Source: Cristatella mucedo (lineage: Eukaryota > Bryozoa > Phylactolaemata > Cristatellidae). From it: DNA of 64,000 bases. The notes under the pieces were generated by a model. That model searched no databases, was not told where the DNA came from, and was given only the letters and a program-made list of their open reading frames with translations. The stretch is taken from NCBI GenBank assembly GCA_009760855.2, contig WPIO01000016.1:6128501-6192500 (forward strand), in the 5' to 3' direction. Of this stretch, positions 2,030-61,058 are shown in pieces. Each line of letters begins with the position of its first letter. Position 1 is the stretch's first letter. A program made the position numbers and the translations under genes.

Positions 2030-2699
2030 ATTATACATATAAAAATATACTAGAGGTCGGAACAATGCTGCCCGTCATTTTTTTTAATTTCGGCTCAGCA
2101 GAGCTTCAAAATTGGGCAAGAGTTCGGCAGTGGGTTTTCTGAATTCCAAAGTACGGCCGAGCAGGAAGCTAGTTTTGCCTCCTAAAGCTGCTATCAGCAC
2201 ATAACTACATTTCGAGAATAATTGAATTCAACTCAAGTTTTAATTTTTACCAACCACAAGTAATGAGGCCAATGTAAGAGTGATTGCTAATAGTCCTCAG
2301 TAATTATCTATCTTCTCCGACGGCGGATGTTACGCCGGGGTGCTTCGGCTTCTACAACAATGTCTCCTGGCCGCAAGCATAGCGCTCGCAGCGGTAATTG
2401 TCGTTGCGGAGGCGTTGCTAGTCCTTGCCGACGAATATCTGCGACCCCAAAACCTCGTATCGCGGCTAGCGACTCAAAGCAGCACCAATACGCACGGTTA
2501 CGCCTACGGGTGGCGGACCGAGGTGCCCACGAAGAGCACCCGCGTCTTAGAGTAACAGCAATGGAATGCTTAGGCACTCCAAAATGCCTATTGGTGGATT
2601 CTTGCAGCATATCCGAGGATTAGAACGCGAGCTCTCGTTGAGAACTGAATTTTAATGCGATCCAACAATAGAGCCCCACGCGAGCGGCTAGTGATTGCG
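2030..2699. other. Stretch without an assigned gene
   Basis: I recognise no gene here. A 71-residue open frame at 2340-2555 (+) begins with a strongly hydrophobic leader-like segment (LLAASIALAAVIVVAEALLV) and could be a signal or membrane segment. It has no clear splice sites or partner exon, so it is not called as a gene. Confidence 0.3.
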
Positions 2700-3036
2700 G
2701 GGTTCGACGAATTACCGCAATCCACTCTAAATAGGCTAGCAACGACCAGACGTAAGCGTTGCTGAGCTCAAATTTTGCTTTGATATTGTAGTACACGTTC
2801 GAATTTATCTGTCCACCAAACTTCATGTCGCTGCACGCCCACATATGCAAATGAGCTTTGACGCCGGACGCCTGCACCGCAATCCATTTTAGTTCCCATC
2901 GAATCCACCACAAATCAGCTGCGCACACCTCCAAAAAGTTTGGAATCTCAAACTACGCTACACGTACAATGTATCCAGAAAATTTCGCGCGATTCCACTC
3001 ACGCGTTCTCACCAAGTCCACAGAAATAGGATTTCG
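2700..3036 (-). repeat. Extra partial copy of the terminal module
   Basis: This stretch repeats, in direct orientation, the sequence at about 3084-3430 (GGGTTCGACGAATTACC through the CACAGAAATAGGATTTCGG block) with roughly 95 percent identity, and stops at 3036 where the linker of the inverted arm begins. It is therefore a tandem, truncated duplicate of the element terminus lying outside the main inverted pair. Confidence 0.75.
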
Positions 3037-3619
3037 GCGGCTCGATCCCGACCAGAGGGCGTCGTAACTGGAGCGAAGACACGGGTTCGACGAATTACCA
3101 CAATCCACCGCAATCCACTCTAAATAGGCTAGCAACGACCAGACGTAAGCGTTTCTGAGCTCAAATTTTGCTCTGATATTGTAGTACACGTTGAAATTTA
3201 TCTGTCCACAAAATTTCATGTCGCTGCACGCCCACTTATGCAAATGAGCTTTGACGCCGGACGCCTGCACCGCAATCCATTCTAGTTCCCATCGAATCCA
3301 CCACAAATCAGCTGCGCACACCGCCAAAAAGTTTGGAATCTCAAACTACGCTACACGTACAATGTATCCAGAAAATTTCGCGCGATTCCACTCACGCGTT
3401 CTCACCAAGTCCACAGAAATAGGATTTCGGTGGTCCAGGCAAATACCGCAATCCACTGCATTCCACCATGCAACGAAAGAAATCCCGATAGAAAAGCTCC
3501 TTTTTTGATTGCATATGACGGCACACTCTGCGACAATTGCATTACAAAAATTCGCTTGCATTGGCGCGGCCGTGCTCGTGCAATGCGCTGCAATCGACTG
3601 CAGTAGCCCGGGCCAATAC
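3037..3619 (-). repeat. Left inverted arm of the fold-back element
   Basis: The reverse complement of this 583-bp segment matches 5861-6443 almost base for base; I found only isolated differences (for example GTGTCTTCGCTCC against GTGACTTCGCTCC, and one in the AAATTTCAACGTG/AAATTTGAACGTG stretch). The inner edge is at the GTATTGGCCCGGGCTACTG block. Confidence 0.9.
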
Positions 3620-5860
3620 CGCAATCCACTACGATTCACAGAATCCACCGAATAAAAAATCGAAATACATTGCGCCGAGCTCCAGTTTGTATTGTATGTT
3701 AAAGTGCACCGTGCTGTGTGCACAACCACGTAAAATTAGAAAAATTGCAACCTCGCACCGTGACAATGGGTGGCGATTGCCTGAAATGACCTGGAAAACT
3801 ACCACAATTCACTCTATTCCACTGCAAATCATCCACAAATCGCCATTGGGAAGCTCTAATTGACATCGCATGTAGGACTAGGCTCAGTTTAAAGGTGCAT
3901 TCAAAAAATTTCTCCATTGTGCACACGCGTTCTTATGCAATGAAGTGCAATCGACTGCAATGGACCGGTCCCATACCGCAATCCACCAAAATCCGTTGTA
4001 ATCCACCACACAGCGACCAGAACGCGTTCACTGGAAGCTCTAATTATGCTTGCCCGCTGCTCTACTCTTCGGTTATTGTCTACTCCCATAACTTCACTGT
4101 AATTTCTACGGCCATTCTGCAGCAATGCACTGCAATCGACTACAACTGCCCGGGCCAGTACGTCAATGTACCGCATCCCGCCAAAAAACGACTAGAATAC
4201 GTACCCTGTAAGCTCTAACAGTGATTGCACGTTGCTCTGATGGGCCGGTGACATGTTTGTTCTGCTAACCACAAGGTCTCCCTCACCCGGTACGATCGGT
4301 TAACCCATACCCCTGGTATCACGACTTGAGTTGAGTGTGTACACTTACAACGGATGGATTTCCGTATTTTTCAAGGCCATTGCCGCCGATTGCCGCGCAT
4401 CGCCCTCGCAAGTACTTTCAAGATTGGTTGATATGATGCGGTTGCACTTTTAATACAGCACACTGTTACGCAAGAAAAATGTGATCTTTTCTCACCAGCT
4501 TTGTAATTGCAACAGACAATTATAGATTGCTCAATTGTTTTGGGCAATTACCGTCGATTGCCATGGATTGCCCAAGGTTGAAAGCGAAAAAGGACAGCAT
4601 GTGCGCTCACAGTAAGCGTTATGTGGTTGGATAATTACAAACAAATTCAAACAGCCAATTTCCAGCAAATTTGAACCCGATTTCCGCAGAGACCGGACCA
4701 TTGCCATCGATTGCCGTGTATTGCCCTCGATTGTGCCTTAGTCGGTTGTAAAAAGGATGTGGCTGCACTTTTAATGCAGTGTAGTGCAATACGCAAAAAA
4801 GTTGGAGCTTCTTTCAGTAGCTGTCGGTCCATTTGTTACTGTCCGTTATGGATTGGCGTATTTCCCCGGGCCATTGCCGTCGATTGCCGTGGGTTGCCGT
4901 CGATTGAACGCGCACCATGGGTAAAAATTATGCGCGCACACAGGTACATTTTACGTGGAATGAGAGTTGCAGTTTATGGCCGTCAATCTTGTCTATTTTC
5001 CACGGATTTCGCTATCGGCCCCTATCATTGTTGTTGATTGCCGTGCATTGCTGACAGTTAGCAAACAAAGCATCTTAAAAATTCCACGGTTTTACTTTGG
5101 ACGCTGCGGAATTTTACATGTAATGAAAATTGAGGCTTCCGCGATGCCAATTTCTCTTCAATTTGCCGGGAATTGGGGTATTGGCTCATGACATTGTTAT
5201 CGATCGCCGTTCATTAGTCGCGGTTGCACGTGTGCGATTAGTTGAAAAGATTTGATTGCACTTTAAACACAGTGGGCTGTGACAGGTAAGATATATTTGA
5301 TCTTGGCCCAGTCACTTTCCAGTGATTTGCGATGGACCATAATGGATTGCCGTATTTGCCCGGGCCATTGCCATCTCTTGCATTGCCCAAGATTGAAGGG
5401 TCAGAGCTGATTGAAAGGGTTGAAAGTATGTGTGCACGCAGTGAGATGTTACGTGAAACGAGAACTGGAGCTTGGTGCAGCCGATTTCTCGTCGATTTGC
5501 CACGAACTTCGGTATCGGTCCCTGCCATTGTTGTTGATTGCCGTGCATTGTTGACAATTAACGTGCAAAATAGCTTGAAAGTCCTACGATTTCACTTTTA
5601 GCAAAAAGAAATATGAAATGTGGTGACAATCGGGACTTCGTGCAGCCAATTTAGTGTCAACTTACCACGGATTGTTGTGGATTACTGCTTCGAGCAGAGC
5701 CGTTGCCATAGATTGCCATGCATTGCCCGAGATTGTACTAGTGAAATTGCCTTAAATGGTGTGGTTGAATTTAACCAATATGCTTTGTAACACACATTGA
5801 AAATTGGAGCATTGCGAAACCGATTTCAGGGCATTTTGCATCAGATTACTGTAAATTGAG

Positions 5861-6443
5861 GTATTGGCCCGGGCTACTGCAGTCGATTGCAGCGCATTGC
5901 ACGAGCACGGCCGCGCCAATGCAAGCGAATTTTTGTAATGCAATTGTCGCAGAGTGTGCCGTCATATGCAATCAAAAAAGGAGCTTTTCTATCGGGATTT
6001 CTTTCGTTGCATGGTGGAATGCAGTGGATTGCGGTATTTGCCTGGACCACCGAAATCCTATTTCTGTGGACTTGGTGAGAACGCGTGAGTGGAATCGCGC
6101 GAAATTTTCTGGATACATTGTACGTGTAGCGTAGTTTGAGATTCCAAACTTTTTGGCGGTGTGCGCAGCTGATTTGTGGTGGATTCGATGGGAACTAGAA
6201 TGGATTGCGGTGCAGGCGTCCGGCGTCAAAGCTCATTTGCATAAGTGGGCGTGCAGCGACATGAAATTTTGTGGACAGATAAATTTGAACGTGTACTACA
6301 ATATCAGAGCAAAATTTGAGCTCAGAAACGCTTACGTCTGGTCGTTGCTAGCCTATTTAGAGTGGATTGCGGTGGATTGTGGTAATTCGTCGAACCCGTG
6401 ACTTCGCTCCAGTTACGACGCCCTCTGGTCGGGATCGAGCCGC
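5861..6443 (+). repeat. Right inverted arm of the fold-back element
   Basis: Inverted partner of 3037-3619, same length and near-identical. The loop between the arms is about 2.24 kb. The end of the arm (CGGGATCGAGCCGC) lies 46 bp beyond the CGAACCC terminus, so the duplicated unit includes a short linker that is not part of the 165-bp repeat. Confidence 0.9.
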
Positions 6444-7205
6444 TAGGTGTGCGAGTCTCCATTCTAATTGGAATCCGGTGAGGTCACATGATCGATGCCC
6501 GGATGACCTCCGTAGCCTTTCGCGTAAGCTCGCTTATCGTCTACGGCTAGCCGCTGCAGGTATGTGCTCGGATACTTTGTTTTTAGGCTTGATTCTTACC
6601 TGGACTCGCTTGTATTGTGTGTGTATTGCTCTACACATCAGCTACAATTTCATGTTCAACTAGTGGGCATCATTGCCGGGCCTTACTTCCTGTTGGGAAG
6701 CTGCTATAAATCCTAGATGGTTTCGGCCATTGGACCTTCGGTAGAGGTTCTAGCTTGACGCGTGTCCACACATATATGTATATAGCAGCTAGTCTCCTTA
6801 ATCAATCTGAGTAAGCCCGATGTATTTGCTGCACTGGCCGAAATATTCGTTGCAAAAGCGCTCTCCATGACATAAGGATGTTGATTGTGCGACCAAGGCC
6901 TCCCAAACAAGTAGCCCATGGCTATGACCCCCTTCCCTTCGGCCAAGTAATACCTGCCTCGGGTCTTGGCCCGGGTAAAGGAGTGGAATTCAAAACCTCC
7001 GTTGGTCCATTGTCTGACATTCTTTTAAAAGCTGTACTCACATTAAGGTGGTCTCACGACCTCACCTCGTGCGGCTGATCTCGAGGACAACTCGGGCGAC
7101 TCGGGCGAACGTGTCACGCTCAGTGGCAACAAACCGAGAGCTCGACATGCTCTCACTGGTCTCAGCCTCCGCAGCATGACTTGTGGCCTGCATCTTCGAC
7201 CTTGC

Positions 7206-7208
<3 letters not shown>
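6444..7208. other. Stretch without an assigned gene
   Basis: No gene or known repeat is recognised. Short open frames have no homologue I know and no convincing splice sites. Confidence 0.3.

Positions 7209-7249
<41 letters not shown>
7209..7249. repeat. (GA)n microsatellite
   Basis: About 20 uninterrupted GA units lie next to an L2 3' untranslated fragment. Confidence 0.95.
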
Positions 7250-7250
<1 letters not shown>

Positions 7251-7252
<2 letters not shown>

Positions 7253-7322
7253 CAACAACATGAATAACATGGTTAGGGGTGACATGCACAGAGTTAGCAT
7301 GCAAGTGTGGCTAGTGGCAGCA
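7251..7322 (-). mobile_element. L2 LINE 3'-UTR fragment
   Basis: The - strand reads TGCTGCCACTAGCC...GCATGCTAACTCTGTGCATGTCACCCCTAACC...ATGTTGTTGTC, the 3' untranslated sequence of the L2 family that is intact at 15030-15240 and 60860-61050. The terminal hairpin and TTA tail are missing. Confidence 0.75.
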
Positions 7323-9876
7323 AATGATCCCAACGATTCTTAATTAAACCGACGCTAGCTGGGATTTTCTGAAGCATTTAGCGACGCAATGACTCGTTGG
7401 CGAAGCACGGGCTAAGTAAAGGTGTATCACCTTCACTTGCTAAGTGGAAGAATAACCTTACACAATCCGGCTATTGATCTGTTCATTTACTTAGATACAT
7501 CACGGCTTACAGTGAGCAATATTGCCTTGCCTGCAATACGCCTCCAACCCACGCCCTGGGAGGTGCTGATAAAGCATCTTACCCGAGGGTGATGACCAAG
7601 TCACTTTTTGAATTACGCATCAGGCTGCAGTGGGTTACTTAAGACGTCGGCTGGGCCTGATCAGATCGCACCAACGGGGCTGCACGCTTTGGCGAAGTAC
7701 GCTGAGAAATATTGGCATGCACCCAATAGCGTAATGTCTACCTGCAGGCAATATGGGTTTTCGACGCTGTAAGAAATCTCTAGGTATTTTCGAAGCATGC
7801 TGCCAGCATGCATACTAAGTGTACATCAAATTTCAAAATTAGCACAATAATTAACTTATCTGGCGTTTTTCTAATTTGCTTAACTACTAACCCGCGAGCA
7901 GTTGCAGGGGAAAAGCTTCGCTTTCTTCGCTTCTCAAAACTTGTGCGTTCTAGCCAAACAGTCGCCCTATTCAAGAGAAGGCCGGACTCACCGATCGCCT
8001 GCACGTGACCGCTCACGTGATCACTCACCGCTCGTGACCGCAGCTCCGGCGGATCGCCGAAATAACTGCGAGACGAGGTCAGCAAAGCGCCGAACCACAC
8101 TTTTCATCACTAACGCCGTCAAGGAGCGATCCATCTTCGTTGACCAATGTCAACGCCGTTAGAGGTGAGCGGTGAATTAGGACAAACACGATGGAGCTTT
8201 CTCAGTCAGTTTTACTTGAGGTTCCTCAGGGCTTCTCTAGTTGTGGTCATATCCAGAGCGGGCTCAGGACAAGACCGGCTAATATCGTCGTGCACTTGTA
8301 TAAAGCAGGCAGGCGATTGTCTGAAAGTATTACGCCAGCTGAGCGCGGAGGCGCGAGAATTGAGAACTCGCAGCGCTTAGCAACTTCACAGCTGCAACTT
8401 AGCATCCTTCACAGCTGCGTGCATGGAATGCTTCCGGCAGTTCAGTGGATGGACCGTGGCTGAACTACAGATTGCCTCACAAACGATACGTATTGTGCAG
8501 CAATTGTGCAGCAATTTGAGAGCCATATTGGGTCGCTCCAGCCATTAATGACGAGTCAGCGCGGCTGTTGCTATCACGAGTGCCTCAATCCCCGTGACTT
8601 AAGCGCTCGTCTGGCCTTTTCATTGGTGCGTCAAATTAAGTAAACGGGCTAGCCCACTCGCACATAAAGGCCTTAAATGCACTATAGAAAACTGTCCTGC
8701 TTAATATGATCAACTGATCCTGGGACTTTTTAAGCCGTACACAATTTACGCTCGGACAACTTGATTTTGGTGGTTGCTTGTTTCGTGTTGGCGGTAAAAA
8801 AATCTCTGCATGAAAATGCAGTCGCAGGCCAAGCTACAACAGTTACTGCTTAGGTCTCCCTATTGCTAGCTCCTAGTCCTTTCTCTTGGGCGGAACTGCC
8901 GACCTTCTGGTCGAGGGTTGGCGTCTGTGGCATAACCTGAGCTTTGGACCGTGCCTGGTAAGGAATTGTCGATAGACCAGGGAGCATGAGTGGGCGTGCC
9001 GGCTCCTACGCTGTGCCTGTTCGGTGTGCTCGGCAGCGCGCTGGCCTCTAGCGTCGACCGTTTAGCAGCTGCAGAGCCACGCTAGATTCGATAGAGTCGC
9101 CAGCCATTGTGAGCGGTAACCGTTGCCTGTTCTGTGCAATTCTTATGTATGGCCGAGGTGACTCGAATGGTCAAGCAACGAGCAGGCAGTGCGCAGCCAA
9201 GGCGTTGTCATCGCACTCTTTTTTTAGGTTCATCTCCATTCATTATGGAGGATTAGGATTTTTCCACTAGCTCGGACTATGTAGCTCACCCTTAATCCGT
9301 GAAGCATGGCGTGGAGGGCCCCGTTAGGCTTTGCTTGGCGCTTGAAGCGGCTGGCTCATCGATTGCTCATTCAATGAAGTTAGCAGCTGTCGACTGTGTG
9401 ATAGTGTGGACGGACAGATTCGGCACTAGCAGGTCAGCGAAGGTTGACATTTCGTAATTGCGAAAAAAAAAGAACAAAAGTACAGTCTGCAGAACTCGGG
9501 AGTTTAATTTCATGCTCCTACGTTAGGTTAAGCATCTTAGCTCGAGCAATTTTTTACCGGGCCCTTCTGGATTTTAGGAGCGGGCAGCGGCGCTCGTTTG
9601 GCGTAGAAGCGGACGGGGGATGTTCGGGGGGGGGTAGCTGCCGCAGTGCGAACGGCTCCGAGAGCCTCTTGCTCCGGGCGAGCAGGATCCGCCCTCTGCG
9701 CTCTCAGAGCGGCGCCACGCTCTCTTGAGCGTTCCAGGCAAAGCGAGCGACCGGGTGACTTGAAAGACATACCGTTCAGGTGCGGGCTAGGTGCATTCTA
9801 ATGTAAGTAGGTGCATTCTAATGTAACGCTGCAAGTACTCCTTCGGGCTGAGTACTTCAGCCTCTCTTCCGCCTGC
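7323..9876. other. 2.5 kb with no gene recognised
   Basis: I see no recognisable protein, RNA gene or repeat with confidence. Open frames of up to about 106 codons (for example 7780-8100 on -, 8191-8463 on +) have no motif I know. A 16-bp direct duplication (AGGTGCATTCTAATGT) lies at about 9788-9822. Confidence 0.3.
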
Positions 9877-12759: not shown

Positions 12760-13703
12760 AGCGCCATTACGAGCGCCATGTTTGTTGCCGAGTCGTGACA
12801 GGACGTGGAAGCCGCACAGCGAGCGTTCGAAACACCGCGCCCACCCAAGCTTGTCGATTTCACTAAGAAATGCCAGTTTGGGCGCGCAGATACACAATTA
12901 TTAGTATCGTGTGTTATGACATCCTCAAGCTCGTGCAAAAGGTAAAATACGCCCTGTTCGTGAACTGGAAGAGCGTTTATTGACAAACACCGTCCGACCT
13001 TCATCTGGCTCCTGACTCGGCCTTCCGTGCTGGCAGACCGCCTGTCAAGGCTTCGATCAATCACACGGACGATTTTAAAACTTTGTATTTCTCGAATCTC
13101 ATTAGTAATTGACAAAAATACATGGATTTGCTGCCACTCGGCACTCAATTCAAACCTCAAGAAGCGCCATCTGCCAGCCGGAAAACAGAGCTTGGTACGA
13201 GGCTAAGGTCTGACGAAAGTGTTTGTCAAGCACTCTTCCAGTTAACGAAAAGAGCGTATCTTGATTATTTCTTGAATTTGAATGCGGCATAAGACATGAT
13301 AATATCAATTTTATGGTAAATCTTTGGCTATCTTTGTGCCTTATAATGATTAGCTTATCTGGTGAATGAATAGTTCTGAATTCATATGCACTAAAACTTA
13401 AATGTTCATTACTCTACGAGTGGAAGTGAAGTTTCAAAGTCAGCGAGTAACCGTAATCGGCTTGCTCGTAATGGCCTTGATAAGTCCCAGAAGTAGCGTC
13501 ATTGGGCGTTGCAGAGAAGCCGGTCGCAAGTCAGCCTTGACAGTGGGGTACGAGTTGCCTCCTGCAGTGGCATCGAACCGTGTGTTTTGGTCCATCCTGC
13601 TGAAGACAGGCTGCTGTGTGCCTCATGTCGGCGTGTGATCAAGAGACCGTTCCAGGCACCGTGCGGTCATCATTACTGCTACACCTATATCTATATGAGA
13701 TGA
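12760..13703 (+). repeat. Segmental duplication, upstream copy (partner 18320-19866)
   Basis: Shared blocks in the same order include a CTTGTCGAT(T/C)TCACT segment (12852 / 18384), a TTCGTGAA(C/A)TGGAAG segment (12956 / 18487), a CATGATAATAT(C/T)AATT segment (13292 / 18835) and the whole RING-exon region (13446-13690 / 19610-19860). The downstream copy carries about 600 extra bases between the last two. The RING end is the best conserved part. Confidence 0.7.
13446..13700 (+). pseudogene. Second TRAF RING exon (duplicate, probably dead)
   Basis: The frame reads ...ASCSGIEPCVLVHPAEDRLL, CASCRRVIKRPFQAPCGHHY, CYTY, a TRAF-family RING finger about 85 percent identical to the exon at 19711-19865. 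Visible ligands are the first Cys pair (CASC), then C, GH and HYC. The next ligand position is Tyr, as in the other copy. The ATG that could start the downstream copy is GTA here, and the donor GTAAGA that ends the downstream copy is absent, the frame running into a stop at about 13703 where the next repeat begins. It is therefore likely a duplication relic. An alternative first exon using another donor is possible but has no support. Confidence 0.65.
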
Positions 13704-13715: not shown

Positions 13716-15244
13716 ACCCGTATATCGTATATCGAAACCTCACACCTTGCTAGTAAGTTCCAGTCTGGCTTTAGAGCTAATCACTCCACAGAGTCAGCAT
13801 TGCTTCGGGTAGACAACGACCTACTTAGGAATGCAGACATGGGTAGAGTGTCTCTTCTTGTTTTGCTCGATCTTTCGGCAGCTTTTGATACCATCGATCA
13901 CAAAGTACTTCTAGAGCGCCTCTCATCTCGCCTGGGCATCACTGGCACTGCTCTGCAGTGGTTCAGGTCCTATCTCAGTGGGAGACTCCAGAGTGTTGAC
14001 GTGAATGGACAAAGATCATCTGAAGTACCTCTAAAATATGGAGTACCTCAGGGCTCTGTGCTAGGTCCGGTCCTTTTCACCGTTTCTATACTCTCCCTCT
14101 CGCTGATGTGATTGCCAAGCACAATCTAGGCTTTCACTTCTATGCGGATGACACTCAGTTGTACCTTTGCTTTGATCCGTCCCAGCCTTCGAGCACCTCA
14201 AATTCTCTCAACTCACTTGCTGCATGCATTGATGACATCCGATCATGGATGGCAGCAAATTTTCTAAAACTAAACGATGATAAAACTAACTTACTAGTTA
14301 TGGGCAAACCTAGTGTTATTCAGAAATTGGAAAGGCTGACTTTCAAAATTGGCTCTGCCAGCATATCTCCAGTTGCATCAGCTCGAAATCTAGGTGTCAT
14401 ATTCCAAAGCGACCCCTCGTTAGACGACCACATCAGCTCCACAGTCAAATCAGCCTATTTTCAGCTTCATAACATTGCTAAAATTAGGGCTTGTTTAGAT
14501 AAGGATACCACGTCTAAGTTGGTCCATGCATTCGTGACATCTCGTCTCGACTTCTGCAACTCACTGCTTACTGGCCTACCAACATGTGCGATCAGGCGAT
14601 TGCAGCTGGTGCAAAACTCTGCAGCTAGGCTTGTCTGTCGTGAGCGTCGCAGTTGCCACATTACTCCACTTCTCGCCGACCTGCACTGGTTACCAGTCAA
14701 GCAACGGATTGACTTCAAGGTTTTGTCGCTCACTTTTAGGTCTCTTCATTCTATGGCTCCAGCCTATCTTTCAGATATACTACCCCATCAGGCAAAGCAT
14801 CGTACCACTCGCTTTTCGGAATCCAACAGTCTAGAAATACCTCGTACAAACCTTAAATCCTTTGGAGACCGTGCATTTAGCTCGTATGCTCCCACAGCCT
14901 GGAACTCCCTCCCGACCTGCATCAGAACATCCCCTGACCTGACCACATTTAAAAGAAACTTATAAACATACCTATTTAGGACAGCATTTAGTGGGTCCTT
15001 GTGATTCGTCCTCGATGTGCTTATGCGTGCTGACACTGTTCATGCTGCCACTAACCACATTTGCATGCTGACCTAGTGCATGTAACCCCTAACCATTTTA
15101 TTCATTTTGTTTGTTTTTCAAGCATGATTTTACTTACTATTCTATTGCGTATCACTTTACAGCAAATGTAAAGCGCCTAGAAAGAGATTAAGTTCTCTGA
15201 GGGCGCTTTATCAAGTGCAATATTATATTATTATTATTATTACC
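13712..15244 (+). mobile_element. L2-type LINE, 5'-truncated, with RT domain and 3' tail
   Basis: The element encodes the reverse transcriptase of an L2/CR1-group non-LTR retrotransposon: FQSGFRANHSTESALLRV, then LLDLSAAFDTIDHKVLL (catalytic block A), GVPQGSVLGPVLF (block B), FHFYADDTQLYL (catalytic YADD), and the family-typical C-terminal region (DFCNSLLTGLP, LQLVQNSAARLVCRE, LHWLPVKQRIDFKVL, LAPAYLSDIL-like, GDRAFSSYAPTAWNSLP). The frame changes once near 14090, between the GPVLF and YADD blocks, so the copy is not intact. The 3' UTR ends in the family hairpin (GCGCCTAGAAAGAGATTAAG / TTCTCTGAGGGCGC) and a TTA tract. Endonuclease is missing. It sits inside an R1 repeat, with TACCC at both edges. 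Confidence 0.92.
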
Positions 15245-15345: not shown

Positions 15346-16298
15346 CATTGCCGTCGATTGCCGTGGATCTCCCTGATTGTGTGCTTGTGATTGGTTGAAG
15401 GGATGCATCTGCACATTTAATACAGTGCTCCTAATAAACAAGAACAGTTGAATCTTCTCCCACCAGCTTTGTGTCTAATTGTAACAGGACGTCACAGATT
15501 GCCGTATTTTCCGGACCATTGCCTTCGATTGCCATTTATTGCATGAGATTGAAGGCGCACGATGGGTTGGAGTATGTATACCAATTGCGAACGTCATGTG
15601 GCATGATAATTGGAGCTTCGAACATCCAACTTCTTATCAATCTTAAAAAGATTGCTGTCGAAGCCATGCCATTGCCATCGATTGCGTTGCATTGCCCTCA
15701 ATTTTGCCTTTGTCGATGGTTTAAAAGGATGTGACTACACTTATAATACAGGCTCCTGCAATACATAAGAACATTTCGAGCTTCTCATAGCAACAGTCAG
15801 TCGTTTGTAACGGGCCGTTATAGATTGGCGTCTTTTTCCGGGCCATTGCCGTCGATTGCCATGTATTGCCGTCGATTGAACGTGCACAGTGGGTGCAAAA
15901 TATGCGAGCGAATAGTTAGATGTTACGTGAAAAGAGAGTTTCAGTTTCTCGCAGAAAATCTTGTCGATTTTCCAAGGATTGCTCTATCGGCCCCGACCAA
16001 TGTTGTGGATTGCCAAACTGCTGTCAGTTAACGAGCAAAGTAGCGTGAAAATGCTCCGTTTTTACTTTGGACGCTGTGAAATATTATTTAAAATGAAAAT
16101 TGGAGCTTCGAGCTGCCAATATCTCGTCAATTGGCCGCGGATTAGAGTAATGGCCCAGACCATTACTGTCTATTGCCATTCATTGTTCGAGATTGCATGT
16201 TCTCGAGTGGTTCGAAGGATGCCATTGCACTTTAAACACACTCGCTGTGATACGTAAGAAATATTTTGAGCTTTTCCAAGTCACTTTCCGGTGATTTA

Positions 16299-16442
16299 CA
16301 ATATAATATAATTCATTTGTATAGCACCCTAAGAGAAATACTTCTCTATTCAGGCGCTTCCCATATGCCTCGGGACTCGAGCCCTCGACCTCAGCCAGAC
16401 CTCGGTCGAGCACCTTAGCCGTTGGACCAAACCAGCTCAGCA
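16299..16442 (-). mobile_element. SINE-A copy inserted in the repeat block
   Basis: The - strand reads GAGCTGGTTTGGTCCAACGG (A-box region), GACCGAGGTCTGGCTGAGG, GAGGGCTCGAGTCCCGAGGC (B box), then the L2-like tail AGCGCCTGAATAGAGAAG...CTTAGGGTGCTATACAAATGAATTATATT. Complete head to tail; flanks resume the 165-bp repeat on both sides. Confidence 0.85.
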
Positions 16443-17636
16443 TGGATCGTATTAGATTGCCTTATTTCCACGGGTCATCGCCCTTGATTGCTATGTATTG
16501 CCAAGGTTGAATGCATTGATTGGGTTGAAATTTTGCACTCGGGCAGTGAGATGATACGTGGAATGAGAATTGGAGTTTCGTGCAGCCGACTTCTTGTCGA
16601 TTTGCCAAATGATTGTGGCAGTGGCCCCAGACATTGCCGTCGGTTTCCGTGCGTTTTTGACAGCATGTAAAATTGCTTGCAAAGTTAATGGTTTCACTTT
16701 TATACAATGACATGTTAAATGCGATGACACTTTGAGCTTTTCGAAGCCAATTTGTGGTCGATTTGTCATGCACTGTAGTGGATTGCTCCTTCCAGCCGAG
16801 CTTTTACCGTAGATTGCGATTCATTGCTCGTGATTGTGCAAGCAAAATCGGTTAAAATAAGGTGGTCGCACTTCAAAAAAAGTGCTTTCTATAATGCATT
16901 CATGATTAGAGCATTGAGAAATTGATTTCGGGGATGGGACTTTGCAGTCGATTGCAGTGAATTTCTGCAGAATTATCCAGGCAATTGCAGTGAAGTTGCG
17001 TGATTACAGAATAAATGAGGATAAGATTAACGTGCAATTACTATAAGAGCTTGAAGTGTACGCATTCTGGTCGTTTTTCGGCGGATTTCGGTGTATTGTG
17101 GTGTTGGCCCGGACCATTCCAGTCGATTTCAGTGGAGTGCTGCAGAATGGTCGAGGCAATTATAGTAACATTGTGCGAGTACGCAATAACCAAAGATTAG
17201 AGCAATGTGTAATCATAATTAGAACTTGTATTTTACGATTTCTGAACGCTTTGCGGCGGATTGTCGTGGATTGATGTATCGGACCGGGCCGTTGCAGTGC
17301 ATTACATGAGAATCCGTGTGCACGATGGGTCGAAATTTTGTGGGTGCACTTTGAACTGGGTCTAGTCTTATATGCTATGTAAATTGGAGCTTGACACTGG
17401 AGATTTGAGGATGACTTAGTGAACTAGTGGATCGTGGTATTTTTTCTAGCCATTTCAGACGTTTACTGAGCAGTGCCAGAATGGGCTGATTCATAATTTA
17501 TTTACTTTTAAGTAGGTGTGCACACAACGCAGTGCGCATTAACATGCAATTATAACTGGAGATCAGCGCCATCTTCTGCTAGTATTATTAAGGTAGATGC
17601 GATGGATTGGAGTGGATTGCAGTATTGGCCCGGGCC

Positions 17637-17987
17637 AAAGGGGGAACTCAACAAGTCTACAGGGAGGATCCTATACAAAGTACACTACGGGGCGAAAGAC
17701 GACTCAGCAAGCGCAAACAAACGCGCTAGTGCTCCGTCGGCTTCCACAGTCGCACCGTCGTAGGATTCCGCCTCACTAGTACCAGCGTACGCCGTCCAAG
17801 ACCCGGCTAGCTCAGTACTCTGTGGTAGACGGAGCGGACGTCCACCACCGTCGAGAGCTTCTGCCGAAAGAGAATTAGCATGCTGTCCCTAGTTCCGGTC
17901 CTCGGGTCTCTGGGAGCTGACCCCAGGCTTTGCCCTTCCGGGGCAAGGCGACACCCAGCCCGACATATCGAATATCAGTGGGTCCGC
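17637..17987. other. GC-rich insert inside the repeat block, origin unknown
   Basis: Repeat sequence stops after GGCCCGGGCC and resumes at about 17988. The 350 bp between are GC-rich, with no repeat-unit similarity and no recognised gene. Composition differs clearly from both flanks. Confidence 0.5.
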
Positions 17988-18319
17988 CTACTCGAGGGTA
18001 CAGAATAGTGCGAAAGTATTTTCTGGGTATATTTTACATGCAGCGTAGTTTTACATTCCAAAACTTGTGGAGCTTTGCGCATCCGATTTTTGGTGTATTT
18101 GAAGCGAAATAAAGTGGATTGGGATACAGGCCTCCGCCGTTGCAGCTCGTTTGCATAAGTGCACGTGAGCACAATCATGAATCTTGGTGGATAAATAAAA
18201 TCGTAAGTGTACTAAAATACCCGCCCAAATTTTGAGCTCAGAAGCACCAATTTCCAGTCAATTTTAGCCTACATAGTGTGGATTGCGGTAATTTTTCGCA
18301 CCCCAAGATGAGCTGCTAA

Positions 18320-19866
18320 ACAAGCACTGTGCGGCCGAAGGCAGCGGCGTGCGCAGGTCCGTTGCTATGCCCGACTAAACTTGTCGATCTCACTCAGAAT
18401 TGCACGATTTTTGCCCACAGATAAACAGTTATTAATACGTGCTATTCAATCCTCTAATCTATTTAGAATTTAAAAAGGTGCACTCTTTTCGTGAAATGGA
18501 AGTGCATGTATTTCAAACACTTTCGTCCTACATTCGCCTTTCTCCTGGCTCTGCATTCAGGGCAGGCAGACAGCGCTTGTTTAGGCTTGAAATGAGCGCA
18601 CAGACTATTGGAAAACCTTGTTTTAATTGAATTGCATTAAATATTGACAAACAATACAAGCTTTTACGACCGTTCGCGTTCTCAGTTCAAGCCTGGACTA
18701 GCGCTGCGAGCTAGCCGGAAAACGACGCAGGGATCAAGGCGAAGGTCGGACTTGAGTGTTTATCCATACGCGCAGGTATCCGCCTCACGAAAAGAGCTTA
18801 TCTTGACTTTTGCCTAACTTGAGAATGGAATAGCACATGATAATATTAATTGTATATCTATTAGTGTGAATTATTCATTTTTATATGAGATGGACAAGTT
18901 TGGTCGGGAATGGGGACAGACCCGCCTACGTTTTTTAAGTTGGTCACCTTGCACTTGGAAACTTACGATTGGTATTTTTCACTACGTTATCACATGCCCT
19001 AACTTTCAATTTATTTATAATATAGATGTGTGACTCGATTATTGCGAAGTTAGTGTTTGTTGTGGGGCCATCGTTATCGAACCGTGGTTCTGCTCGCATA
19101 ATTGTGACAAATAAATTCGCATGACGTTTACTTTTGGTAAACTAATATGTAAGCATTCTGGAATCATTGAAATTCACTGAGAAGACGAAAGCTATTTCGA
19201 AACGTGGAGATATACTGTTTGCGTATCTGCGGCTATTTTAAAGTTCGGCATTATGTCCATCCGGGAAGCCCCGCATTACAGCAAGGGGCTGCGGGCGGGT
19301 TTGTCTTGAATCGGTCGTTTTAACGCCCTAACTTAAGGATTGTTTTCGTCAGCGCCGGTAAGGAGGTAAGTCGATATTTTAAGTGCAATTTTATCCAACG
19401 CCTGTTGATGTGCTTCTGTAAGCAGTATTTAAACGGAAAACGAGATATAAGAAGCATAGATTTAATGAAAATAGCGGACCGTGCTTGAGGCCTCGGCTAA
19501 CTACTAGCGAGTCATCTGGTATCTAAACGTCTGCCGGAACATGCCGCCTGCCTTCTCGTGCGTAGCTTATGGCAGATAGTGCACTGCCTATCTTTATGCC
19601 TCGTAACCATTACCTGTAATCGGCTAGCTTGTAATAGCCTCGATAAGTCCCAAAAATGCAGTTATTGGGCGTTACAGAGTAGCCGGTCACAAGTCAGCCT
19701 TGGCTATGGGATGGCAGTAGCGTCCTGCAGTGGCATCGAACCTTCTGTTTTGGTCAATCCTGCCGAGGACAGGCTGCTGTGTGCCTCATGTTGGCGTGTG
19801 ATCAAGAGACCGTTCCAGACACCGTGTGGCCATCACTACTGCTTTGTCTATGTTCAAAATATTATG
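18320..19866 (+). repeat. Segmental duplication, downstream copy
   Basis: Partner of 12760-13703. It contains the TRAF RING exon used in the gene model and its presumptive promoter and 5' UTR. The stretch from about 18860 to 19500 has no counterpart in the upstream copy. Confidence 0.65.
19711..19865 (+). CDS. TRAF exon 1: start codon and RING first half
   Basis: Encodes MAVASCSGIEPSVLVNPAED, then RLLCASCWRVIKRPFQTPCG and HHYCFVYVQNI. The donor is AT|GTAAGA, phase 2. Vertebrate TRAFs have HRYCSFC at the HHYCFVY position, so the second Cys of this pair is Tyr. An in-frame stop-free run extends upstream of the ATG, so a longer or spliced N-terminus is conceivable. Confidence 0.8.
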
Positions 19867-22800: not shown

Positions 22801-25745
22801 TTTCGATTCACTTTACATAAGCTGTAAAGAAAGCATGATCGATTGGTTAGTGGCAGCATGCTCAATGTCAGCAAGAATAACATCATTGGATTTGACATCT
22901 ACAGAGTCAGCATTCAAATATGATTCCTTCCAGCATGACTAGTATCAGCGTGCAGAAGCACACAAAGGACAGGAATGTCTTAACGCCAGTCGGAAGTGAG
23001 TTCCGGTCTTTCGGAGCATACGAACTAATGTTGCATTCTCCAAGGGGTTTGAGGTTCGTGCGAGGTGCAGGTGTGCGACTCGATTCAGGAAAGCAGGTGG
23101 TACGATGCTTAGTCTCTCGGGGCAGTAGATCTGATAGTTAGGCTGGAGCCAGAGAATGAAGGGACCTAAAAGTGAGTGACAAAACTTTGAAGTCGGTGCG
23201 TTGCTTGACAGGGAGCCTGTGCAGGTCGGCGAGAGGTGGTGAGTTATGGCAACTGTGACGCTCACGACAGACAAGCGTAGCTGCAGAGTTTTGCACCAGC
23301 TGTAAGTGCCTGATTGCACAGGCCGGTAGACCTGGAAGCAGTGGATTACAGGAGTCGAGACGGAATGTCACAAATGCATCGACCGATTTCGATGTAGCAT
23401 CCCTGTCTAAGCAAGCCCTAATTTTAGCAAATTTCTGTAACTGAAAGTAGACAGACTTGACTTTGGTGGTGTTGATGTGGTCGTCTAATGAAAGGTGATT
23501 TTCTAATAGGACACCCAGATTTCGTTAAGATTCAACAGGAGATATTCCTGCAGAGCCTACTTTGAGCGTCAGGTTTTCCAATTTCTGGATTGCACTTGGT
23601 TTGCCCATAACTAGTAAGTTACTTTTATCATCATCCAGTTTGCTGCCATCCACTTGCGGATGACATCAATACATGCAGCAAGCGAATTACGAGAATTCGA
23701 TGTGATGGAGGGCTATAAACAATCAAAGCAAAGGTACAACTGAGTCAAGTGCATAGAAGTGAAAGCTTAGGTCGTGCCTGGCATCCCATTGGGAAGAGGG
23801 AAAGTGTAAATCGTTATAAGTACTGGACCTAGCACGGAGCCCTGAGGTACCCCATATTTTAGAGGAATGAATCGCAAAGATAGTTTAACTCATACTTCAG
23901 TGGATCCTCGGGTGATCTTTTTCCATTCATATCAATACTCTGGAGTCTTTCACGGAGATAAGACCTGAAACACTGCAGTGCAGTACCAGTATTGCACAGG
24001 CGAGAGAAGTGATACTCGAGAATTACTTGGTGATCGATAGTATCAAAGGCTGCCGAAAGATCGATTAAAACAAGCAGATAGACTACCGAAGTCTGCGAAC
24101 CCAAATCAATGCCGACTCTGTGGCTTAATTGGCTCTAAAACCAGACAGGATCTTACTAGCTAGGTTTGGAATTTCAATATATGAGTTCGCTGATCTGCCA
24201 CAATCTTTCCAATGTCATTTATAGGAACGGCAGAATTGAGACGGTGCGGAAGTTGCTTAAGTTCTCTTGGTCTAATGTTGCTTTCTTGAGTAGTGACCTG
24301 ACTACAGCATTTTTTAAAGGTTTTGAGACATTACCTAAGGCTGATGACGTATTTGTGGTGATAGTTATGCATAGCTGCAGCAGATCTATGCATCGTAGAA
24401 TCAGGACGGGGAGTGCGGTCGAGAGGTTTAGTTGTTTTCTATGACTAGGATATGAACTTCAGGACGAGATCACTAGTGACCTGCTTGCATGTAGACATTG
24501 AGGTGCTGCCAGGAATAGAGGGACATGATTCCAGAGGGGATGCCGCCACTATGATGAACTCCCTGGTCTTCTCTATCTTGTTAACAAAGGAGTGAGAAAC
24601 GCGATCCGCTAGATCATCACTGGGTAAGGAGCTAACATGGCAGTGGTTAAATAGACGCTTGGTCGTAGAAGTCAGCATTTTTAAATTGTGTATCTGTGAT
24701 TCAACAACTTTTTTTTTATAGAAGATAGACTTGGCCTTTGCTAGCATTTATTAGTATAATTTACAGTAGTCCTCGGATACCTTTCAATGGACAGTCAGTC
24801 CTGATTCATGGTATGCTTTTCCAAGCTTGCGATAAATAGACCTAGCTAGTTGAATGCATACCTGCGGTAAACCACAGGCCGTAAGAGTGAGGATGGACAG
24901 TACGCTTAGTCAGAGGTACAAACTCGACGAGCATGTCAGCTAGTGTCGCGTTGAAGCCATCTACCAATGATAAAAGATCGGAAAGGGAAATGAGAAGCAG
25001 GGGCAGAGAAGATATTCTGGCTGGGACAGCATCGATGTCAAGGTTCTTGGCGCTTCACGACTCACATGTGACTTTAAATGTGGAGGAGGGCATACACTGA
25101 AGACTGAATGATATCTGCTTGTGGTCGGATATGCATGATTTGGTAATAATAGGTGATAATATGCAGTTTAGGCGAATATTCGGTCGAGTGTGTGTGTGTG
25201 TGTGTGATGGTTTAGGTGAGTAGGGCCATGCACATGAACCACAAGAGAAATGAGTCAGTCTACAAAATCTGGTGTTGAAGGCGTCAGATAAGTTATCAAA
25301 TTAAATTTTTAAAACACCAATAGCGAGGAAAGATTGATTTCTGGCACACAGAATCGAAATGATGATGAGGTAAAGGAGGACTTGGTATCTGGGTGCCATA
25401 GACCAGGCGAAGAATCTTACAACCCGCTATTCTGACTCAAATCATTTAGCCATACCTCGTACGTACTCAAACCTGTCGGAGATTCATGCCTTTAGTTCCA
25501 ATGCTTGCAAAGCCTGGAACTTACTACCCACGCACGTCGCAACATCCCCTGACATGACGACATTTAAAAAGAAGCTTAAAACACACCTTTTTATTACAGC
25601 ATTTGGTGAGGCTTTTTGATTCTTCTTTCATGTGCATGTGCCTGCTTACTTGCTCATGCCTGCTGCTTGGTGTACCTGCTGCTTGCGGATGTCACCACCG
25701 AGTATTTGGTGATGCTTCATATGCAGCATCTATAAAGTGCCTAGA

Positions 25746-38290: not shown

Positions 38291-38469
38291 GCTTTGTGCC
38301 GCATAAAATAAATAATTCACGTAACAGATCAGAATAAAAAATATTTTGAAATGAGTTCAGCTCTTCCCATACCACAGTGGGCTAGTTTATTTCTTATTTT
38401 GGTTGGATACGTTTTGCAATACCTGTCCATAATTTCAGAAAATTTAGCTCTGACGTTAGACTGCAGGAT

Positions 38470-39765
38470 AAGAATAATAATACTAATTCGCTTGATAAAG
38501 CGCCCTCAGAGAAGTCAATCTCTTCCTAGGCGCTTTACATTTGCTGCAAAGGGAAACGCAATTGAATGGTGAATATTATCATGCTTGCTAAACAACATGA
38601 ATAGCATGGTTAGGGGTGACATGCACAGGGTCAGCATGCAAATGTGGTTAGTGGCAGCATGCACAGTGTCAGCACGCATAAGCACATCAAGGACGAATCA
38701 CAGGGACCCATTAAATGCTGTCCTAAGTAGGTGTGTTTTTAAGTTCTTTTTAAATGTGATCAAGTCATGGGATGTTCTGACGCAAGTCGGGAGAGAGTTC
38801 CAAGCTTTTGGAGCATACGAACTAAATGCACGGTCTCCAATGGATTTGAGATTTGTACGAGGTATTGGTAGACTGCTGGATTCTGAAAAGCGGGTGGTAC
38901 GATGCTTGGCCTGGTGGGGAGTATATCTGAGAGATAGGCTGGAGCCAAAGAATGAAGTGACCTAAAAGTGAGCGACAAAACCTGAAAGTCGATCCGTTGC
39001 TAGACAGGGAGCCAGTGCAGGTCGGCGAGAAGTGGTGTGATGTGGCAATTTCGACGCTCACGACAGGCAAGCCTAGTTGCAGTTTTGTACAAGCTGTAAG
39101 CATCTGATTTCACTGGCAGGTAGCTCAGCAAGCAGTGAATTACATATGTCATGATGGAATGTCACAACTTCATGGACCAATTTAGATGTGGTATCCCTGT
39201 CTAAACAAGCCCGAATTTTAGCAATGTTATGTAGCTGAAAGTAGGCAGACTTGATTGTGGACCTGATGTGGTTGTCTAACGAAATGTCACTTTGGAACAT
39301 GTCACCTAGATTTCGTGCAGACTCAACAGGGGATATGCTGGCAGAGCCGATTTTGAGTGTTAGCCTTTCCAATTTCTGAATCACACTTGATTTCCCCACC
39401 ACTAGTAAGTTGGTTATATCATCATTCAGTCTAAGAAAATTTTCTGCCATCCGTGTGCGGATGTCATCATTTCATGCAGCAAGGGAGTTGAGAAATTGGA
39501 CGTACTGGAGTGCTGAGAGTGATCAAAGCAAAGGTACAACTGAGGGTCATCCGCATACATGTGAAAGCCTAAATTGTGCCTGGCAATCCCATCGGCGTGA
39601 GGGAGAGTATGCCAAGCACAGAGCTTTGAGTTACCCCATACTTCAGAGGTTCCTCGGGTGATGCTGAAACTTGGATAGTTGAACAGAGAAAAATGGAATA
39701 GCAGTGTCAGCCAAGCAATTCCAGCAGGAAGCCATGACGACCGCTGTGGGCAGAGGAGCTGTGAA
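38470..39765 (-). mobile_element. L2 LINE, 5'-truncated and broken
   Basis: On the - strand: the end of the RT (FHMYADDPQLYLCFDHSQHS near 39600, the YADD block), then FLRLNDDITNLLVVGKSSVI, KIGSASISPVESARNLG, SAYFQLHNIAKIRACLDRDT, and the C-terminal region down to the 3' UTR and the hairpin with TTATTATTC tail at 38470. It abuts the second pogo copy at 39766. Confidence 0.88.
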
Positions 39766-40939
39766 CTTAACACGAACTGGAAAGTGGTGCTACCGCTTCA
39801 TGAAACGTCAGGGCCTGGCCATGAGAACACGGACTAAGTTGGCGCAAAAAATGCCACAACAATGAGAAGAAAAGCTGTTGAACTTCCAGAAGTTCACAAT
39901 TCATCTGTGCAAAGAACACAGCTTTTAGGTGTTTTCAGATCTACAATATGGATGAGGCAACTGTAACATTCTATGCTCCCAGCAATAGAGCTGTTAATGT
40001 TTAAGAAGCCGAGATGTTATCAATCAAAACTAAACGAAATAAAAAAAATCGATACGCCGTAGTGCTGGCATGTGTAGCAGATGACATAACTCAAAGGGAT
40101 GGTCATTTACCGATATAAAACACTGCCAAGAGAACAGATTATCCTTGAAGTTCACTAAAACGCTTGGACGGACAGCTAGGGAATGAAAGGATGGTTTTCA
40201 AAGTTGTTGGCTTCCGATCGGGAGGTCTTTTAAAAAACCAGACTTGCTTATGTTTGATTCGTTCAGGGGACATTTGATGGACGAAGTTAAGAAAGTGACA
40301 ACTTGCATAAAAACTAAGCTAAGCTGTTATTCCGGGTGGACTGACTAGTCAGTTGCAGCCTCTGGATGTAAGCATAAATAAATCATTCCAAGTGGCCTTA
40401 CGAGAAAACTAGACCTAGCGGATGATGGGCCAGTGGGTGACAGCTTGACACCAGCAGGACGGACGAAAAAGGCCATCCGTCGATCAGGTCTGCGAGTGAA
40501 TGATGATGAAGGCCTGGAGCAGCGTAAATCCAGAGATTATAGTCAGGAGCTTTCGCAGAAGTCTGGCATTTCAATGCAATAGACGGAACAAAAGATGACG
40601 CAGTCTGTGGTGAGAGTGACGACGATAACTTTGATAATGGAGCTTCCACCAAATGTTAAGCCTACGATATGAACGAGAAAGATGGAGAGGGCATCATCAC
40701 CATTCCTGATGCAGTGGATAGTGATAGTGGCATGAGTGATTAATATGAGTCTTGATATTGTTCAATTCATTCAGTTACCGAATAGAATATATTTTTTCAA
40801 AAATTTGGGGGGCTTATACATCGGGGCAGGGGGAAGTTATACACACTAATAAAAAAAAAGGTAACTGTAAGCCCTGTGGAATTTGAAGGGCCGCTTGAAT
40901 TAGCTCCGCAGAAATTCTTAACATCTCGCAGCGCCTGTT
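39766..40939 (+). mobile_element. pogo/Tigger-like DNA transposon remnant, copy 2
   Basis: Nearly identical to 1-1171 (single-base changes and a few 1-2 base length differences in A runs). It has the same transposase relics and the same stops, so both derive from one already dead copy or from a segmental duplication. Upstream, AMTTAVGRGAVNLTRTGKWC in frame may be further element sequence before 39766. Confidence 0.8.
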
Positions 40940-41102: not shown

Positions 41103-41625
41103 TAGTAGTTTTAGGTCCCTTCATTGTTTGGCTCCAGCCTATCTCTCAGATATACTCCCCCATCAGGCCAAGCATCGTACCACCCGCTTTTCGGAATCCA
41201 ACAGTTTACCACTACCTCGTACAAACCTCAAACCCTCTGGAGACCGTGCATTTAGTTCGTATGCTCCCAAAGCCTGGAACTCATTCCCGACTTGCGTCAG
41301 CACATCTCCTGACTTGACCACATTTAAAAGAACTTAAAAACACACCTATTTAGGATAGCATTTAGTGGGTCCCTGTAATTCGTCCTTGATGTGCGTATGC
41401 GTGCTGACACTGTGCATGCTGCCACTAACCAGATTTGCATGCTGACCCCGTGCATGTCACCCCTAACCAGGTTATTTATTTTGTTTCTTTATCAAGCATG
41501 ATTTTACCCACCATTCAATTGCGTTTCCCTTTGCAGCAAATGTAAAGCGCCTAGAGAGAGAGATTAAGTTCTCTGGGGGCGCTTTATCAAGTGAATTATT
41601 ATTATATTATTAGTAGTAGTAGTCG
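41103..41625 (+). mobile_element. L2 LINE 3' end
   Basis: C-terminal L2 protein (LAPAYLSDILPHQAKHRTTR, GDRAFSSYAPKAWNSFPTCV), 3' UTR, hairpin (GCGCCTAGAGAGAGAGATTA, GTTCTCTGGGGGCGC) and TTATTATATTATTAG tail. Confidence 0.88.
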
Positions 41626-46251: not shown

Positions 46252-46410
46252 GCTTGATCGAGCTGGTTTGGCCCAGCGGTCAAGGTGCTCGCCACGACCA
46301 AGGTCTGGCCGAGGTCGTGGTCGCTCGAGCCCTGTGGCATACGTGAAGCACCTGAATAGAGATGTAAGTTCTCTTGGGGAGCTATACACAAATGAATTAT
46401 ATTAAATTAT
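46252..46410 (+). mobile_element. SINE-A copy
   Basis: GAGCTGGTTTGGCCCAGCGG, TCAAGGTGCTCGCCACGACC, GGTCTGGCCGAGGTCGTGG, TCGAGCCCTGTGGCATACG, AGCACCTGAATAGAGATGTA, AGTTCTCTTGGGGAGCTATA, then AATTATATTAAATTATTATT. Confidence 0.88.
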
Positions 46411-57735: not shown

Positions 57736-57764
57736 GTATACTGGGATTCCGAGGGAGAAGATAA

Positions 57765-57911
57765 AAAATATAATTCATTTGTATATAGCGCCTCAAGAGA
57801 ACTTAATCTCTATTCAGGCACTTCACGTATGCCTCGGGGCTCCAGCCCACGACCTCAGTCAGACCTTGGTCGAGGCGAGCACCTTAACCGCTAGACTAAA
57901 CCAGCTCGAAG
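57765..57911 (-). mobile_element. SINE-A copy, complete
   Basis: On the - strand: CGAGCTGGTTTAGTCTAGCG, GTTAAGGTGCTCGCCTCGAC, GGTCTGACTGAGGTCGTGGG, GAAGTGCCTGAATAGAGATT, AAGTTCTCTTGAGGCGCTAT, ATACAAATGAATTATATTTT. Confidence 0.9.
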
Positions 57912-59604: not shown

Positions 59605-61058
59605 GACTGATTTCCACAGAATCAGCATTGCTTAGGGTGTACAACGATCTACTTAGGAATGCAGGCAGAACTAGAGTGTTTCTGCTGGTTTCGCTCGATC
59701 ATTCGGCAGCTTTCGATACCATCGATCACAAAATTCTTCTAGAGCTCCTCTCATCTCGCATAGACATCACTGGCACTGCTCTGTAATGGTTCAGGTCCTA
59801 TCTCAGTGGGAGACTCCAGAGTATTGACGTGAATGGACCAAGATCATCTGAGGTACCACTGAAATGTGGGGTACCTCAGGGTTCCGAGCTAGGTCCAGTT
59901 CTTTTCACGGTTTATACTCTCCCTCTTGCTGATTTGATTGCCAAGCACAATCTAGGTTTTCACTTCTATGCGGATGACCCTCAGTTGTACCTTTGCTTTG
60001 ATCATTCCCAGCCTTCAAGCACCTCGAATTCTCTCAACTCACTTGAAGCATGTATTGGTGACATCAACACATGGATGGCACCACATTTTCTAAAACTAAA
60101 CGATGATAAAACTAACTTGCTAGTTATGTGCAAACCCCGTGTGTGATTCAGAAATTGGAAAGGCTGACGCTCAAAATTGGCTCTGCCAGCATATCTCCTG
60201 TTGAATCTGCATGAAATCTAGGTGTTATGTTCCAAAATGACCTTTCATTAGAAGACCACATCAGCTCCACAATCAAGTCTGCCTACTTTCAGCTATATAA
60301 CATTGCTAAAATTCGGGCTTGTTTAGATAAGGATACCACGTCCAAGTTGGTCTATGCATTCGTGACATCCCATCTCGACTTCTGTAACTCACTGCTTACT
60401 GGCCTACCGGCATGTGCAACCAGGCGATTACAGATGGTGCAAAACTCTGCAGCTAGGCTTGTCTGTCGTGAGCATCGCAGTTGCCACATCACACCACTTC
60501 TCGCCGACCTGCACTGGCTCCCTGTCAAGCAACAGATTCACTTCAAGGTTTTGTCACTCACTTTTAGGTCACTTTATTCTTTGGCTCCAGCCTACGTATC
60601 AGATCTACTCCCCACCAGGCCAAGCATCGTACCACCCACTTTTTAGAATCCAACAGTCTACAAATACCTCGTACAAACATCAAATCTATTGGAGACCGTG
60701 CATTTAGTCCGTATGCTCCCAAAGCCTGGAACTCACTCCCTACCTGCGTCAGAACATCCCCTGATCTGACCACATTTAAACGGAACCTAAAAACACACCT
60801 ATTTAGGACAGCATTTAATCGGTCCCTGTGACTCGTCCTTGATTTGCTTATGCGTGCTGACACTGTGCATGCTGCCACTAACCACATTTGCATGCTGACA
60901 CTGTGCATGTCACCCCTAACCTTGCTATTCATATTGTTTATCATGCATCATATTACTCACCATTCAATTGCGTCTCCTTTTGCAGCAAACGTAAAGTGCC
61001 TAGAAAAAGATTGAGTTCTCTGAGGGCGCTTTATCAAGTGCATTATTATTATTATGTC
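59605..61058 (+). mobile_element. L2 LINE, 5'-truncated and broken
   Basis: RT start (LSFHRISIA-like, then AFDTIDHKILLELLSSRIDI), GVPQGSELGPVLFTVYTLPL, HFYADDPQLYLCFDHSQPSS (YADD intact), then the C-terminal region (SAYFQLYNIAKIRACLDKDT, LHWLPVKQQIHFKVLSLTFR), 3' UTR, hairpin and TTATTATTATTAT tail. At least three stops or frame changes. No endonuclease. Confidence 0.9.

Follow-up and report, generated by a model that had tools for sequence, protein, structure and literature searches.

How does a genome come to hold two long, almost identical sequences in opposite orientation around an array of strongly diverged repeats? The question is raised by a 64,000-nucleotide stretch of the bryozoan Cristatella mucedo (hereafter the window; assembly GCA_009760855.2, contig WPIO01000016.1, positions 6,128,501 to 6,192,500, with coordinates below counted from its first letter). 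Our answer, held with considerable confidence, is that the locus carries a non-autonomous, internally deleted fold-back DNA transposon inserted at 2700-6397, whose near-identical arms are secondary and arose after insertion by copying of its right end together with the adjoining flank.

The inverted-repeat arms occupy 3037-3625 and 5855-6443 (589 bp each), agree at 586 of 589 bases (99.49%, 3 mismatches) and are separated by a spacer of 2,229 bp. Unbroken matching effectively stops at 3620/5860, within one base of the limits that a preliminary description of this DNA had given for two near-identical arms of equal length (3037-3619 and 5861-6443). That description had also reported loop motifs about 166 bp apart and a single change of orientation between about 4217 and 4350, and both observations hold. 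Between 4379 and 5876 we measured nine steps of 153-175 bp each (arithmetic mean 166), besides which the element contains longer spacings of about 320-500 bp. Within 3083-6397, 22 sites match a 21-bp sub-repeat of the terminus at 14 or more of its 21 positions; 100 first-order random sequences gave 0.64 on average and never more than 3, and the neighbouring stretch 6501-9815, of equal length, gave 0. All 10 matches left of 4241 lie on the plus strand and all 12 right of 4242 on the minus strand, placing the single flip at 4241/4242. In the window copy, the array motif is the terminal motif repeated, pointing inward to the element's centre. The period of ~166 bp follows from the recurrence of this motif, and nucleosomes are not needed to explain it. 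As the array resembles the terminus, and as Galileo of Drosophila offers a parallel, it probably represents a set of transposase-binding sites.

The first sign that the feature belongs to a repeat family lay in the window itself: a second, older, truncated copy at 15346-18304 (plus strand, 70-74% identical), which carries, at about 16300-16441, an insertion resembling a short interspersed element (SINE) and 367 bp of unrelated sequence at 17636-18002. The genome-wide arm search that had been suggested earlier, run on the 572-Mb assembly (688 contigs), showed the window element to be one copy of a dispersed family. It returned 1,453 first-look candidates, 40 of which were scored; the 38 scored matches other than the window's own arms were 84-88% identical. 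In thirty-five of these the match sets in no earlier than query position 46 (window 3082), in three at positions 36-44. Because other copies begin at 3083, positions 3037/6443 were ruled out as transposon ends, and the natural terminus lies at 3083/6397. For comparison, 40 loci were fetched (20, then 20 further; given L numbers here). At the 20 loci where the boundary was inspected, the family sequence breaks off at GGGTTCGACGAATTACC or a mutated version of this sequence, and the DNA beyond is visibly different; the terminus of L028 is degraded. A 26-base terminus pattern matched 572 times in the assembly at up to 2 mismatches (291 on one strand, 281 on the other), and its reversed control 0 times.

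Copies of the family share an architecture as well as a terminus. Block maps, which omit matches shorter than 40 bp, gave the order C-D-B (terminal block first) at one end or both in 36 of the 40 mapped loci (exceptions L016, L032, L042 and L043); reversed A usually comes next, and in some loci reversed M. Two-ended copies resemble asymmetric internal deletions of a palindromic plan (e.g. L026, L033, L034, L045), and in some of them one arm is short, with a matching stretch of 74-86 bp (L015, L024, L033). Further sequence beyond M is common to L009, L019 and L043; the L043 stretch has 276 candidate places in the assembly (40 scored) and includes a small self-complementary part, a small hairpin that we read as the element's centre. 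Immediately inside the terminus, L039 repeats the terminal 10-bp unit ACCGCAATCC 59 times in tandem (L039:515-1114). The family thus shows what defines a fold-back element: long terminal inverted repeats, internal repeats of variable number, and copies scattered through the genome whose termini agree and which carry target site duplications. The loop, earlier described as old and diverged, looks different in this light. Its ~166-bp units do differ strongly from one another, yet its main block mostly keeps 80-90% identity when set against the family's other copies, as the arm blocks do (a few short pieces lie at 72-74%). Across copies the loop is about as conserved as the arms, and an older loop between young arms was therefore ruled out.

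The limits of the insertion were set by its flanks. Left of the arms, 2700-3036 holds an extra terminal unit in direct orientation (94.3% identical with gaps, 97% ungapped over 300 bp), so that a natural family terminus lies at 2700 as well as at 6397. With the window copy taken as 2700-6397, the flank match among lengths of 6-12 bp was highest at 9 bp (0.56 versus 0.25), the mean rising from 0.23 at 7 bp through 0.34 at 8 bp; with the copy taken as 3083-6397, the value at 9 bp was 0.51. Flanks agree at 6 or more of 9 positions in 6 of the 12 other two-ended copies, compared with 1 of 132 unpaired combinations, and the target site duplication of L024 is perfect (TTCTTTTTA). At the window copy, the 9-bp flanks GTGATTGCG (2691-2699, plus strand) and GTGACTTCG (6398-6406, plus strand) match at 7 of 9 positions, whereas the flanks of 3083-6397 match at 1 of 9; the insertion is therefore best delimited as 2700-6397, and the limits 3083-6397 were ruled out. 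Compared with flanks of other copies, those of the window reached at most 4 of 9 in 24 comparisons.

Within these limits the block map reads from the left as follows. C' (2700-3036, plus strand) is the original left terminal segment, 97.3-97.6% identical to the terminal block of the arms and broken at 3036. It is followed by F (3037-3082, plus), a 46-bp stretch lying beyond the family terminus; by the terminal block C (3083-3430, plus), which opens with the natural terminus; and by D (3431-3625, plus), which block comparison identifies as the arm's second block and which closes the identical tract. The array block B (3626-4241, plus) is single in this copy. The near-central block M (4242-4377, plus) starts at the orientation flip seen in the motif strands, and A (4378-5831, plus), the array block of the right arm, holds the ~166-bp units. 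The right arm then runs through D (5855-6049, minus) and C (6050-6397, minus) into F in its original position (6398-6443, plus), the first 9 bp of which are the right target site duplication.

The 46 bp by which the arms overrun the natural terminus identify the template. In the assembly, F is confined to the two ends of this element, and its 29-bp core occurs in exactly two places in 572 Mb (up to 3 mismatches), both at these ends. Apart from the 46-bp left copy of F, a search of the assembly with the right flank 6398-7150 gave two partial matches (~200 bp at 75-76%, both on the same contig) and no second full-length one. On the right, F runs on into host DNA; the left copy sits, inverted, with parts of the element on either side. 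These outer 46 bp belong to the host and not to the element, and the right end with its flank was therefore copied, inverted, to the left. Since this host DNA is present only at both ends, the near-identical arms probably come from a recent local event, in keeping with the recent arm duplication or gene conversion proposed in the preliminary description.

The junctions differ in character. About one base is common to both sides of the outer junction at 3036/3037, and the B/M junction at 4241/4242 has no evident homology. In the right arm, D-type sequence changes to b/A-type sequence within a 15-bp motif, GCCCGGGCCAATACC (5860-5874, minus), at the place where block B would be expected. In other copies this motif is present, with small changes, at both the D-end and the b-end; B is therefore missing from the right arm at a short homology.

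Arm identity within copies was set against identity between them. Over the 230 pairs with 200 or more aligned columns, terminal blocks of different copies show 86.9 ± 2.1% identity, with 91.1% as the highest value. This level is exceeded both by C' against the window arms (97.3-97.6%) and by the arms against each other (99.5%). Among the 13 two-ended copies, window included, arm identity is ~80-95% in nine, with L015, L024 and L033 measured over less than 100 bp at a time, and 96.6-100% in L017 (878 bp, 100%), L026 (834 bp, 96.6%), L032 and the window. L020 and the right end of L026 have an identical flank, probably representing a single insertion on two contigs, and are not independent for that reason. 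In a tree of 42 ends, which leaves out several loci with incomplete ends, C' groups with both window arms (support 100/99) and the arms are sisters (99/89). Both ends are well-supported sisters in five of the nine copies represented by two ends (L017, L026, L030, L032 and the window) and are not sisters in L014, L029, L031 and L034.

L032, taken with L049 and L050 (C332:10094496-10099332), is a 99% palindrome that fills 4.8 kb; a family copy forms its middle, and flanking host DNA lies to either side. It is either an assembly artefact or a large real palindrome. Because the palindrome reaches the limits of the 4.8-kb sequence and may be artefactual, L032 was set aside as a second example of a captured flank.

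We infer the following course of events, in which the repair pathway and the timing of copying are our interpretation of the structures described. A transposase made elsewhere, most likely of Mutator/FB type, would bind the repeated motif and move the element by cut-and-paste. After insertion at 2700-6397, a break or stalled fork would have arisen in the left part of the element. Repair would then have copied the right end outward, through D and C, over the terminus and on through 46 bp of host DNA, probably by template switching between the inverted arms during repair synthesis. Attached in inverse orientation to the broken C', the product would have formed the junction at 3036/3037 (~1 bp shared), and block B would have been lost from the right arm at the 15-bp motif common to both sides.

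The alternative that survives best, though we regard it as unlikely, is a staggered-break inversion of the DNA lying between C' and the right end; its cuts, 589 bp apart, would have duplicated D-C-F inversely at both ends. Staggered-break inversions leave inverted duplications, and one such event would yield the order C' / F C D B M A / D C F and explain the single B. The A/D junction, however, falls inside a 15-bp motif found elsewhere at both the D-end and the b-end, which a chance stagger would not predict. An assembly artefact from folded or chimaeric long reads is very improbable here: L032, from the same assembly, could be one, with its palindrome of at least 4.8 kb (99%) including host flank, but the window arms lie 2.2 kb apart, differ at 3 sites and have C' on the left only. 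Slightly less credible still is an ordinary insertion at 3083-6397 by a young copy whose arms were already identical on arrival. High arm identity does occur beyond the window copy, in L017 and L026, for which such an insertion is possible; for the window copy it is contradicted by F, as it would not place 46 bp of host DNA inversely on both sides, and the flanks of 3083-6397 are inverse rather than direct repeats. A satellite array inverted by chance and unconnected with transposition would suit the ~166-bp units and the longer spacings, but as a full explanation it is contradicted by the dispersed copies, the sharp common terminus and the 9-bp flanking duplications, and we give it almost no credence.

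Several observations weigh against post-insertion copying in a Mutator/FB-type transposon. The window's own target site duplication has 2 mismatches in 9, and the remaining 6 of the 12 other flank pairs score 1-5 of 9; in three of these (L014, L017 and L031) direct repeats are visible by eye, shifted by one or more bases, and in the other three no convincing direct repeat was seen. High arm identity also occurs without a captured flank (L017 and L026). Copying of the right end and loss of B from the right arm may be either one event or two. Finally, no match to a Mutator-like element (MULE) lies within 20 kb of the family at any of the 178 listed places (0 of 100 listed termini out of 572, 0 of 38 arms and 0 of 40 core matches; the lists overlap).

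The window copy itself has little coding capacity: the longest stop-to-stop frame in 2700-6443 is 142 codons (mean 123 and maximum 214 in 100 shuffles), so that no frame longer than expected is available for a transposase gene. Across the family, a scan of 6 of the 54 frames of at least 160 codons (from 5 of the 40 loci) revealed no transposase; L019, L040 (two) and L045 gave retroelement domains, L033 and L042 nothing. A transposase beyond block M was considered and rejected, as the sequence there leads to the core with its small hairpin, whose 40 scored matches are not near MULE matches. Target site duplications are 8 bp in the P superfamily and 8-9 bp in Merlin; the peak at 9 bp in the family lies outside a P-type range of 7-8 bp. 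An assignment to Mutator/FB is unproven, with two features in its favour: the fold-back structure, to which the 10-bp array of L039 adds, and a duplication length of 9 bp, which fits the 8-10 bp given for this superfamily in PMC5225508. The genome contains 59 MULE matches.

The preliminary description knew of no named family with this design. As to kind this was mistaken, as Drosophila FB, Galileo, Tetris and the nematode element Tm1 are built in this way. FB is a fold-back element with a short tandem unit at its ends, which the 10-bp array of L039 resembles by description. The same array recalls the short-unit end expansion of Tm1 from Meloidogyne (Mutator/Foldback), which further resembles the window family in its composite repetitive ends of variable length, its mostly 9-bp target site duplications and its members without transposase, and differs from it in that some members have a putative transposase gene, in tandem units of 13-15 bp and in other terminal motifs (PMC3169594). 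Tetris, a non-coding fold-back of Drosophila virilis whose transposase is unknown, has ~220-bp tandem repeats inside its ends, which have 37 bp in common with the outer domain (PMC4079207); the window family has ~166-bp units instead, strongly diverged mutually. Galileo (Drosophila, P superfamily) has extra transposase-binding sites in its ends (PMC3688188, cited in PMC4079207), like the window array, and a 7-bp target site duplication (PMC3573991) against 9 bp here. In papers on Galileo, altered or defective copies are discussed as products of breaks after excision, of ectopic recombination, of aborted gap repair and of template switching (PMC3573991, PMC4168063), and defective P-superfamily copies have been ascribed to aborted gap repair, slippage or template switching (PMC4168063).

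Fold-back elements as a kind are thus already known, and it is the captured host flank that makes the window copy an unusually clear record of end rewriting. The copied 46 bp act as a tag, telling which end served as template and that exchange went beyond the transposon boundary; arm identity alone tells neither. We raise as a tentative possibility that fold-back template switching rewrites the family's arms in place again and again and can continue beyond the terminus, so that single-copy host DNA becomes new terminal inverted repeat. If so, rewritten copies might transpose with ends made of host DNA, and fold-back transposons could in this way gain new termini and gene fragments. The 572 terminus matches and the range of arm identity across the 13 two-ended copies make the rate and mechanism of end rewriting countable.

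Elsewhere in the window, two degenerate self-palindromes (12839-13314 and 18353-18925), 64-69% self-complementary and 68% identical to each other as direct copies, flank the second family copy and perhaps represent another old hairpin element family. A 1.17-kb direct repeat (1-1171 and 39766-40939, 98.9% identical, 40 kb apart) marks a recent repeat or duplication. SINE-like repeats of ~140 bp, 81-88% alike and labelled by eye, lie at 16309-16441, 46258-46403, 49425-49563, 50151-50288, 51253-51386 and 57764-57906. Related repeat fragments at 13785-15231, 22972-24184, 38466-39610, 41109-41612, 52410-52869 and 59613-61055 are probably retrotransposons lacking long terminal repeats; one of them contains a reverse transcriptase match (14024-14962) below the curated cut-off. 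A tRNA search of the window found none, and an Rfam scan at gathering thresholds gave nothing besides a U1 spliceosomal RNA gene or pseudogene of full model length (49575-49738, minus strand, 130.6 bits). An exon of a glycerophosphodiester phosphodiesterase (GDPD) gene lies at 50675-51364 on the minus strand (E = 4.1e-21).
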